From: Exiguobacterium acetylicum
GTDB lineage: Bacteria > Bacillota > Bacilli > Exiguobacteriales > Exiguobacteriaceae
Reading direction: 5' to 3'
Length of the DNA: 64,000 bases
Assembly: GCF_022170825.1 (NCBI RefSeq)
Contig: NZ_CP081878.1
Location: forward strand, 1,576,001 to 1,640,000
The position numbers and the translations under genes were made by a program. Position 1 is the stretch's first letter; every line of letters begins with the position of its first letter. Positions 25,392 to 28,587 of the stretch are shown here, piece by piece. The notes beneath the pieces are model-generated. The model saw nothing but the letters and a program-made list of their open reading frames with translations. It ran no database searches and was not told the origin of the DNA.

Positions 25392-26258
25392 TTATTCCGG
25401 TCGTAAATCGGTCCGGTTTGATTCCTTGATCCCGTTACCGCTTGAGATATACTGAATCGTTCCGTTTTGATCCGTTCGATCAGCCGTAATCCGTTCCGTC
25501 TTCAATGCTTGTAAGACAGAGGGGCGCGGATGACGGTAGGCGTTGTCCGCGCCAGCTGAGATCAAGGCTCGTTTTGGGGCGACGGCTTGTAAGAAGGGCA
25601 GGGAGGACGATGTCTCTGCTCCGTGATGACCCAGTTTCAGAACATCGGCGCGAAGCTCTTCAGCCGACTCAAGCAATTGTTGCTCGGTCCGAATCGGCGC
25701 GTCCCCCATGAAGAGGAAGCGGTCCTGTCCATTCTCGACGCGAAGGACGGCGCTCCAACTGTTGAGATCCTGTGTTCCGTCCGTTAAGGGAGCAAGGAAC
25801 GTAAAACGTGCCGACTCACTCGGTATCTTAAGACCTGCTTTGACCGACTTGATCGTTACGCCTTCGCGTTTGACGGCAAGGAGGAAGTCGCGATACGTCT
25901 CCGTCGTATGCGTGACGCGCGGGGCATAGACACTCTCAACCGGAAACGCATCGAGGACCGTATCAAGTCCACCGATATGATCAGCGTCTGGATGTGTCGC
26001 AACAATCGCCGTCAAGCGTTTCACACCGAGTTCATTTAAATAGCGGACGACATCTTCCCCTTTTCCGTTATTCCCGCCATCAATCAAAATTGCATCTTCT
26101 TTCGTTCGAATGAAGGTGCTATCTCCTTGACCGACATCAAAACCATAGACCTCCATCTGTCCTGCTGTCGGGGCAGGGGGTGTCTCTTCATCCCGTGTCG
26201 TATAGAAAATGACGATCAAGCAAAGTGCTAGTAAAATCGTTGATCCCCACTTCAACAT
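25392..26258 (-). CDS. ComEC-like MBL-fold metallohydrolase, membrane-anchored
   Basis: 288 aa. A signal-anchor helix (WGSTILLALCLIVIFY) is followed by an extracellular metallo-beta-lactamase domain. Features are YGFDVGQGDSTFI near residue 38, LIDGGNNG near 58, the metal-binding ATHPDADHIGGL near 85, FLFMGDAP near 175, and VLKLGHHGAETSSS near 198. This is the C-terminal domain of ComEC/Rec2 as a separate protein; family members have been proposed to be nucleases or hydrolases at the surface. It overlaps the phosphatase gene by 7 nt. Confidence 0.85.
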   Translation of the reverse strand: MLKWGSTILLALCLIVIFYTTRDEETPPAPTAGQMEVYGFDVGQGDSTFIRTKEDAILIDGGNNGKGEDVVRYLNELGVKRLTAIVATHPDADHIGGLDTVLDAFPVESVYAPRVTHTTETYRDFLLAVKREGVTIKSVKAGLKIPSESARFTFLAPLTDGTQDLNSWSAVLRVENGQDRFLFMGDAPIRTEQQLLESAEELRADVLKLGHHGAETSSSLPFLQAVAPKRALISAGADNAYRHPRPSVLQALKTERITADRTDQNGTIQYISSGNGIKESNRTDLRPE

Positions 26259-26842
26259 GTCGGTTCTTCTTTCTCAAACAAATAAAGCATACCGTTGCGC
26301 GGATGACCGAACCGTGGTCCGCGGTAACCGCGACGCCTCAAGGCAGCACGCATCAAAATCATCATGCCACCATGACCGACGAGTAAGACCCGTTCATCGT
26401 CTTCAAACATCAATTGATTCAACAGGACCTCGATTCGTTCATTTGCCTCTTTGATCTCTGCTTGAATCCGTTTGCTGAATGGGGCAGCGAGTCGACCGAG
26501 AATTGCCCAGCCGAGGAATGGCAAGCGTAGATTCGATCGAATCGTCGGAAATGGCACTTCCCGCAGGAGATCGGTCACGATGATTTCTTTGTCATAGACG
26601 CTCTGAGCCGTCTGGACGGCACGCGGCATGCTACTGGCATAACAGACCGTCCAATCAATCTGACCGAGCTCTACAGGCTGAATATCGATGTCTGACGTAT
26701 CATAGCGTTCAATCCACTTTTCAATATCACTGGCACTGATCCAGCCTTTCGTCGGGTATCCTTCTGTCACCCGGTGATGTCTCACTAATCCAATTTGTTT
26801 CATGCTTCGTGCGACGGTCAAGACCGTCTCCCTCACTTTCAT
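26252..26842 (-). CDS. histidine phosphatase family protein
   Basis: 196 aa. The phosphoglycerate mutase-like fold shows LVRHHRVTEGYPTKGW at about residues 19-34, where the usual catalytic RHG/RHA is RHH. YASSMPRAVQTAQ follows near 68 and LLVGHGGMMILM near 155 with the second catalytic His. The start at 26842 has a weak ribosome binding site and lies 7 nt after the DUF3307 stop, so translation is probably coupled. Met14 is an alternative start. The substrate is unknown. Confidence 0.78.
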   Translation of the reverse strand: MKVRETVLTVARSMKQIGLVRHHRVTEGYPTKGWISASDIEKWIERYDTSDIDIQPVELGQIDWTVCYASSMPRAVQTAQSVYDKEIIVTDLLREVPFPTIRSNLRLPFLGWAILGRLAAPFSKRIQAEIKEANERIEVLLNQLMFEDDERVLLVGHGGMMILMRAALRRRGYRGPRFGHPRNGMLYLFEKEEPTC

Positions 26843-26849
26843 TCATCGT

Positions 26850-27644
26850 TTAAAGTGCGACACGGATTGCAAGTCCACATAAAATCGCCCCTAAAATACT
26901 AAGCAAACTCCCGATGATGTAATATTCCGCAAAGCGGCGATCTTCAAACTGTTTAAAACGGGCTAGTGCCTTCAAGGCGATAATGAATCCGATGGCACCG
27001 GTTGCGTTCGTGACGACGAGCAGGGTGATGATCGCCCGTTCGACGAGACCGATATAACGCCCAATCCCGTTCAATTCCGTCGTATAACTGCGGGCGGAGT
27101 CTTCGACTTCATGTGTGACGGTTCGCGAGACGCCGTCTAATTGCTCCTTACGTGTCACTTTCCGCTCAAAATGCGCTTCAATCAACCGCGGAGCAAATGG
27201 CGCGAGCATCAAAGCGATTCCGTGACCAAGTAGTTCTGTCGTCACTAAGCTGAAGCAAAGAATCCAGAGAACTTGCTCCGGTCGCGAGAACGACAGTGAC
27301 CAATCAATCGGGACGAACAACCACGTCAAGGCAATGATAGCAGCGATATGTAACGCTTGATCGATCCAATAAGCAACGGCTTGCTTCACGCGACGTTTGA
27401 GCGGGGAGGCATCGAGTAGGGCGTGAAACACGAGAATACTCCCTCCAAGCAACCCAGCGTCTTCTAGGCTTAACGTCCCCCGTATGACGAAGAACGCAAA
27501 GACAAGCAGCATCAAAACGCTGTGGACAGCAAGGTGCTGGACTAAAAACCGTCGATTTCGATGTTTGTGCAGTGCCATCCGTTTCGTCTGCAAGGGAAAG
27601 TCAGCAAGCAGATGGACAAGTAACAGACTGAGTAAGACGGTCAC
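26850..27644 (-). CDS. DUF3307 membrane protein, SatD partner
   Basis: 264 aa with six to seven hydrophobic segments. The N-terminal DUF3307 motif is MTVLLSLLLVHLLADFPLQTKRMALHKH, followed by LVQHLAVHSVLMLLVFAFF. Conserved His and Asp residues sit near the membrane face. The second half has a soluble loop (ERKVTRKEQLDGVSRTVTHEVEDSA) before two further helices. Its function is unknown. In streptococcal sat clusters a membrane protein also follows SatD. It overlaps satD by 4 nt (ATGA), which suggests a fixed pairing of the two products. Confidence 0.78.
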   Translation of the reverse strand: MTVLLSLLLVHLLADFPLQTKRMALHKHRNRRFLVQHLAVHSVLMLLVFAFFVIRGTLSLEDAGLLGGSILVFHALLDASPLKRRVKQAVAYWIDQALHIAAIIALTWLFVPIDWSLSFSRPEQVLWILCFSLVTTELLGHGIALMLAPFAPRLIEAHFERKVTRKEQLDGVSRTVTHEVEDSARSYTTELNGIGRYIGLVERAIITLLVVTNATGAIGFIIALKALARFKQFEDRRFAEYYIIGSLLSILGAILCGLAIRVAL

Positions 27645-28288
27645 CGAATCGCCTCCCAGACTTGGAATTGCTCTAGTGCCTGTGTTAAGGCGGTTTCGAG
27701 ACGCTTACGTTGCTTACGCTGTGAGCGGGAAACAAGCTTCGCGACATTCGCGCGGGCATCTTGTTCCTTAAAGCCCATTTTCAGACCAATCTCTTCATAC
27801 GTATCATCCGGATATTGATCCATCAACCGGTGCAGTTCAATCTGGCGATCCGTTTTTCCAAAGTACGCTGGATAAAGCATCTCAAGATAACCGTTCAGCA
27901 GGGCGGTCGGTAAGTAGGGCGGTCCAGCAAACGCAATCCGTGACGAGAGCGTCTTCGCTTGCTCCTGTGCTTCAAACGCATGAATGATCGCACTACCATT
28001 GGCTTCTTCGGCTTGAATCGTCGAGATCGTCTCATATTGTCCAAAACCAATCCCGATGTAGCCCGGTAAGTCTTGATTCAACAGTTGCAGGATGATCGGA
28101 TAACTCACTGGATAATCCGCAAATACAGCCAATAAACTGTCACCAGACTTGATTTGAAACGGAACGATACTTGCTGGGAATGCCACGTTTAACTCATCAG
28201 CCAGTGTTCGGAGTGTCTGCAATAACACTTCTTTACTTGAATAATCGCGGGAGCCTTTGACATCAAATGATAAGGCGACAGCTTGCAT
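27641..28288 (-). CDS. satD: SatD family protein, cyclase-like fold plus C-terminal helix-turn-helix
   Basis: 215 aa. The SatD family was named from a Streptococcus acid-tolerance cluster. The N-terminal part (ALSFDVKGSRDYSSKEVLLQTL, then FQIKSGDSLLAVFADYP and LPGYIGIGFGQYETI) has the strand pattern and GDSLLAVF block of nucleotidyl-cyclase-like domains. The C-terminal 60 residues (TYEEIGLKMGFKEQDARANV) look like a helix-turn-helix resembling sigma region 4. I infer that it may be a sensor and DNA-binding autoregulator. An AGGAGG site precedes ATG. First gene of the operon, directly downstream of three phased palindromes. Confidence 0.75.
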   Translation of the reverse strand: MQAVALSFDVKGSRDYSSKEVLLQTLRTLADELNVAFPASIVPFQIKSGDSLLAVFADYPVSYPIILQLLNQDLPGYIGIGFGQYETISTIQAEEANGSAIIHAFEAQEQAKTLSSRIAFAGPPYLPTALLNGYLEMLYPAYFGKTDRQIELHRLMDQYPDDTYEEIGLKMGFKEQDARANVAKLVSRSQRKQRKRLETALTQALEQFQVWEAIR

Positions 28289-28308
28289 AGCAATTCCTCC
28301 TGTCTAAA

Positions 28309-28388
28309 TGTTGCCACTAAATCGGCAACATTTCAATTGTTACCGATAAAAAGGTAACATTTTCGGTGTTACTGTTATTAGAGTAACA
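28309..28388. repeat. three 22-bp palindromes phased at 29 bp, candidate operator array
   Basis: Three inverted repeats lie upstream of satD at 28309-28330, 28338-28359 and 28367-28388. Each has 7-nt arms separated by 8 nt: TGTTGCC/GGCAACA, TGTTACC/GGTAACA and TGTTACT/AGTAACA. Start-to-start distance is exactly 29 bp both times. The common half-site is TGTTRCY. The array begins 20 nt before the satD start and ends about 100 nt upstream, where the promoter must lie. The arms vary while symmetry is kept, which is the signature of protein-binding sites rather than chance repeats. Confidence 0.8.
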
Positions 28389-28559: not shown

Positions 28560-28587
28560 AAAAAAACACGGGATTAACCGTGTTTTC
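28560..28587 (-). terminator. intrinsic terminator of the Nudix gene
   Basis: On the minus strand the stem AAAACACGG / CCGTGTTTT with a 6-nt loop is followed by a T run, overlapping the Nudix stop. Between it and the palindrome array (28389-28559) I see no gene. A 20-codon open frame from 28393 has no ribosome binding site. Confidence 0.82.

Follow-up and report, generated by a model that had tools for sequence, protein, structure and literature searches.

Phased palindromes upstream of satD as a probable operator of the SatD protein in Exiguobacterium and more distant lineages

The satD gene of Exiguobacterium acetylicum is preceded by three palindromes set exactly 29 bp apart. We estimate at about 0.83 the probability that SatD itself binds this array cooperatively and represses the operon formed by satD and the gene of a DUF3307 membrane protein. 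Coordinates refer to the window, that is, the whole 64,000-nucleotide stretch of DNA that was analysed, and the features of the locus are the following:

28562-28587, minus strand: terminator-like hairpin closing the upstream NUDIX gene (terminator scan)
28367-28388, no strand: candidate operator site 1, farthest from satD, TGTTACTGTTATTAGAGTAACA, TGTTACT-N8-AGTAACA
28338-28359, no strand: candidate operator site 2, middle, TGTTACCGATAAAAAGGTAACA, TGTTACC-N8-GGTAACA
28309-28330, no strand: candidate operator site 3, next to satD, TGTTGCCACTAAATCGGCAACA, TGTTGCC-N8-GGCAACA
28296-28301, minus strand: satD ribosome-binding site AGGAGG, recognised by sequence, kept in relatives, 8 bp from site 3
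27641-28288, minus strand: satD, 215 aa, predicted palm domain (~1-135) and predicted C-terminal helix-turn-helix (~145-190); proposed array binder
26850-27644, minus strand: DUF3307 membrane protein, second gene of the operon (Pfam PF11750, E 1.6e-15)

The palindromes have a 7-8-7 layout (read on the plus strand), with arms that are perfect in all three sites, and the period of exactly 29 bp occurs twice. An earlier note on this DNA had described 22-bp inverted repeats starting at 28309, 28338 and 28367, with 8-nt spacers and a 29-bp period, and a check of the sequence reproduced them exactly. The pattern TGTTRCY-N8-RGYAACA matched the three sites with 0 mismatches, always carried at least two mismatches elsewhere in the window and had no other exact match in the whole genome (3.36 Mb). 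Likewise, TGTTAC-N10-GTAACA occurred exactly twice genome-wide, both times inside the satD array. The palindrome array is far beyond chance expectation. Relaxed single-site matches showed no excess in the genome (126 versus 190 for a reversed-pattern control). We know of no regulator whose motif fits TGTTAC-N10-GTAACA and, as the motif is also confined to satD, a known-motif reading was discarded. The array lies between satD and the terminator-like hairpin; since this hairpin closes the upstream NUDIX gene, satD probably has its own promoter, and the array probably sits in the satD promoter region, where the earlier note had placed it. The DUF3307 start and the satD stop share 4 nt in what is a two-gene operon at the window locus, and a similar membrane-protein gene follows satD closely in nearly all lineages.

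Conservation analyses placed satD in 19 of the family's 38 genomes, every one of them from genus g1 (Exiguobacterium). TGTTAC-N10-GTAACA was found in exactly these 19 genomes, there only at satD, and the 19 sister-genus (g2) genomes yielded neither satD nor the motif; this split of presence and absence amounts to one event between two genera. Loss of the array upstream of satD in relatives, the outcome that the earlier note had named as speaking against its proposal, was looked for: all 19 congeners with satD retained the three sites with the 29-bp period at SatD identities of 67-99%, one of them (L027) with sites 1 and 2 set 30 bp apart. When 17 distinct Exiguobacterium upstream sequences were placed in a common 29-bp register, arm conservation was 100%, 99% and 87% for sites 1, 2 and 3, respectively, and that of the linkers 56-64%. 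A search for the double site with 0-2 mismatches found no second strict target in Exiguobacterium outside satD. Matches with 3 mismatches, three of them in the satD-less sister genus, look like chance, though one of these places turns up in four related genomes.

Site 3 was frequently asymmetric in relatives (22 of 119 positions), its halves remaining near TGTTACC while the pairing was broken. This bears on whether the palindromes could instead be RNA hairpins in the satD leader, acting through attenuation or mRNA stability, a reading to which we give almost no weight. Each palindrome could fold into a 7-bp stem with an 8-nt loop, and a terminator scan flagged site 2, though solely on the strand opposite satD. 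However, changes that spare the half-sites and break the pairing favour DNA half-sites over an RNA hairpin, a function in RNA would not obviously call for exact 28/29-bp phasing, and promoter boxes predicted inside the array in other lineages would leave most of it untranscribed.

Distant satD genes were located with the Pfam SatD profile and an Exiguobacterium profile; SatD is widespread in the phylum, with profile matches in 68 of the 398 genomes sampled. Upstream of these genes we found arrays of like geometry with different half-sites: ATGTC (TGTC) flanking TTATAA in Streptococcus and part of family f49, GATTC in families f34, f47, f49-g235 and f61-g209 (Lactobacillales), GTTGAT/ATCAAC in f30 and f37, RTATAC/GTATA in f41-g142, ACTTGTC in f14, ATCAAGG in f5-g6, ATCAAC/GTTTAT in f61-g195 and g189, and TTTCACC in clostridial lineages. 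A genus-weighted direct-repeat scan of the 130 bp upstream put 11.1 of 27 genera at a lag of 29 and 8.7 at a lag of 28, with all remaining lags at ~1.5 genera or less. When palindrome and period were fitted together, the best period was 28 or 29 bp in 20.8 of the 27 genera; nine control windows taken at these loci yielded 1.2-3.9 genera, and shuffled sequences ~9%. A later phylum-wide sample, drawn outside the first set as a check, gave 28/29 bp in 15.4 of 49 genera versus ~4.6 expected from the shuffle rate; these two periods predominated among its strong fits, such as TTTCACCCATTAAAGGGTGAAA at 29 bp. No array was found at several satD loci (f32, f36, part of f5 and part of the clostridial set); a later position of satD in its operon there may be part of the reason. 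The persistence of the geometry with other letters upstream of distant satD genes argues for a DNA-binding protein under selection, as had been proposed from the window alone. Two further observations concern satD itself: L141 (G489:C9) carries three near-identical tandem 29-bp units (GGAATAAGTTTAAGATATTCCATTAAATA) upstream of satD, and genome G487 (contigs C3, C5 and C6) has two satD copies of identical score plus a broken one.

The half-site letters also inform on which protein binds. Half-site classes and recognition-helix classes of SatD co-occurred, also across host families: the helix IGQSSV(N/S)KAL accompanied GATTC half-sites in four host families (operator similarity 0.83-0.90) and, within f61, the IGQSS and FSNQTISKRL helix classes went with unrelated operators (similarity 0.08). 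Over 18 genera, operator similarity correlated with helix-turn-helix identity (r 0.42, p 0.0005), and the correlation persisted once N-terminal identity and host family were removed (r 0.27, p 0.005), helix-turn-helix similarity being partly confounded with the overall SatD phylogeny. Half-site sequence thus tracks the SatD recognition helix better than the host family in these comparisons, whereas a dependence on the host would be expected if the regulator were encoded elsewhere. This speaks for SatD, the candidate binder named in the earlier note, and makes it quite improbable that a separate transcription factor encoded elsewhere binds the array, with satD merely its target. Such a factor would, moreover, serve a single operon, as the motif stands nowhere else in the genome, and the geometry accompanies satD everywhere while the letters vary. 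On its side, binding by SatD is deduced from sequence, and the satD-less sister genus could equally be without such a factor.

Streptococcus offered two natural experiments. In G163, a genome that gave no satD hit (L145, G163:C1:1184400-1188900, near position 1987), the topA-trmFO junction is without satD and its partner and retains two satD-type operators phased at 28 bp, which look like the deletion scar of a satD operon. In addition, L146 (G237:C11), L147 (G173:C2) and L148 (G245:C20), from three genomes, each carry a second operator pair, located in front of a small lipoprotein gene that matched nothing in Pfam; this gene would be a probable second SatD target in some streptococci. The two operators of this pair are also 28 bp apart, so the geometry is maintained at the second target.

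The position of the predicted promoters suggests what binding would do. For Streptococcus and a number of f49 loci, the top promoter prediction was TAGACA or TGGACA, 17 bp and TATAAT, its -35 box coinciding with an operator half-site and its -10 box falling in the spacer of the next operator; TTGATT, TTCACT or TTGATA half-sites likewise serve as the predicted -35 box in other Lactobacillales. With these boxes situated within the array, binding would close the promoter, and autorepression of satD-DUF3307 is the most likely role of SatD. A scan of the Exiguobacterium satD upstream region found no clear sigma-70 promoter, so repression would hold there by analogy. We consider it unlikely that SatD activates the operon or is switched by a nucleotide ligand between activation and repression. 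Sites placed ahead of a weak promoter could bring in the polymerase, and the lack of a consensus promoter in the Exiguobacterium scan would suit such a role, but in Streptococcus, f49, f47, f34 and f61 the half-site is the predicted -35 box and the sites span -35 to -10, which points to occlusion.

The window protein scored 13.5 bits against Pfam SatD (PF16264), below the cut-off of 29, and was filed as a divergent relative of this family, which is named for the secretion-and-acid-tolerance gene of Streptococcus mutans. Intermediates connect it by homology to accepted members: the G073 locus was matched by Pfam SatD above the cut-off (30.9 bits) and by the Exiguobacterium profile (E 2.6e-24), and G115 by both profiles, with Pfam SatD below the cut-off. 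In a full-length alignment, D9, G49-D50 and Q149 were shared. Family and window protein share the D and GD motifs, a predicted C-terminal helix-turn-helix and a DUF3307-like membrane protein encoded next, while they differ in the sub-cut-off score and in the operator letters.

In the AlphaFold model of SatD (pLDDT 81.5), residues 1 to ~135 are predicted to adopt the class III cyclase/GGDEF palm fold (Foldseek E 3e-4), with structure matches (VIA Z) to Ma1120 (12.3 over 118 residues), Rv1264 (11.7) and GGDEF domains (~11). D9 and G49-D50 were invariant in 16 diverse SatD members, and D9 and D50 presumably occupy the sequence positions of the two metal-binding aspartates of class III cyclases, the fold being that of a predicted model and the aspartates being matched by sequence position. 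Ligand binding or catalysis by the palm domain is plausible. SatD is only ~15-20% identical to the cyclases Ma1120 and Rv1264 and, unlike them, appears fused to a helix-turn-helix. A profile of 26 SatD C-termini matched the DNA-binding domains of Mos1 transposase (E 1e-6), DeoR (4e-5) and ZitR/AdcR, with weaker matches to those of HipB, LrpA, Cro and sigma factors; several homologues also gave sub-threshold Pfam matches to the sigma-70 region 4, Cro or WhiA helix-turn-helix. The window SatD alone had no helix-turn-helix match in Pfam, and a Foldseek search with the isolated C-terminus returned nothing significant, so the assignment rests on the sequence profiles and on the C-terminal helices placed in the AlphaFold model. 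These matches to solved helix-turn-helix proteins and the predicted helices bear out the earlier description of a helix-turn-helix-like C-terminus.

We infer from these data that SatD binds the array and does so cooperatively, that the outcome is repression rather than activation and that a ligand takes part. SatD would be a one-component regulator combining a nucleotidyl-cyclase/GGDEF-type palm domain with a C-terminal helix-turn-helix, and one dimer would occupy each 22-bp palindrome (7-bp half-sites, 8-bp spacer). The half-site centres advance in steps of 15 and 14 bp in 29-bp arrays and of 14-15 and 13-14 bp in 28-bp arrays. A period of 29 bp corresponds to ~2.76 helical turns; as this is not an integral number, neighbouring dimers would lie on different faces of the DNA, and cooperativity along a single face was rejected for that reason. 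Adjoining dimers could nevertheless touch because the half-sites alternate in orientation every 14-15 bp, and the array would then form a short, near-regular ladder over the promoter, with neighbouring SatD dimers in contact. Array-bound SatD would obstruct RNA polymerase and so repress satD and the DUF3307 membrane protein gene and, in some streptococci, also the small lipoprotein gene, and this repression is probably tuned by a nucleotide or some other ligand that the palm domain binds. A bolder scheme, which we regard as doubtful, gives SatD two functions, as an active nucleotidyl cyclase or (di)nucleotide synthase and as its own transcription factor. Palm domains and helix-turn-helices would build a short helical ladder along the evenly spaced, alternating half-sites, nucleotide turnover would set this assembly, and SatD would restrain DUF3307, a membrane effector, in such a way that loss of satD alone is harmful, in an addiction-like or membrane-stress module across Bacillota.

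Autoregulatory helix-turn-helix proteins with phased operators are of an already known kind; unusual here are the sensor domain and a geometry kept far beyond the sequence. PucR/CdaR one-component regulators combine a GGDEF-like domain with HTH_30, and SatD resembles them in having a predicted GGDEF-like sensor and a C-terminal helix-turn-helix within one regulator. Unlike them, it is much smaller, belongs to a different operon and gave E ~0.1 with HTH_30 in two homologues and no match in the window protein, in no case above the cut-off. Autoregulated toxin-antitoxin operons such as Phd/Doc and CcdAB carry a multi-site operator across their own promoter, and the satD operon shares with them a small first gene for a (here predicted) DNA-binding protein, an overlapping second gene and the multi-site operator. 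A further likeness is that satD of S. pyogenes, a single gene, is reported to be essential yet accessory (PMC11323703), which, speculatively, would fit a repressor restraining a harmful partner. In contrast to the known antitoxins, SatD has a predicted cyclase-type fold, and DUF3307 is not known to be toxic.

The literature searched contained no paper on SatD as a regulator, on a SatD operator or on the SatD fold, and the family is undescribed as a regulator there. The array gives SatD a probable molecular role where none was found in that literature; it would make the DNA code of SatD readable in several lineage versions, supply a candidate regulon and place a protein of cyclase/GGDEF fold among the one-component transcription factors. 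The arrays also form a natural operator series in which the letters vary and the 22-bp and 28/29-bp geometry stays constant, useful for studies of regulator-site co-evolution.

Regarding the neighbourhood of the operon, PADLOC gave no match for the SatD or DUF3307 proteins of the window, and a defence-system reading was dropped. The DUF3307 protein matched, over its N-terminal half, phrog_2470 (E 2e-14), a family of phage membrane proteins in the category moron/host takeover. SatD matched no PHROG family, and a phage origin was rejected. Downstream of the operon (25392-26842) lie a histidine-phosphatase-family gene and a gene for a metallo-beta-lactamase-fold protein resembling the C-terminal part of ComEC, both possibly co-transcribed with the operon.
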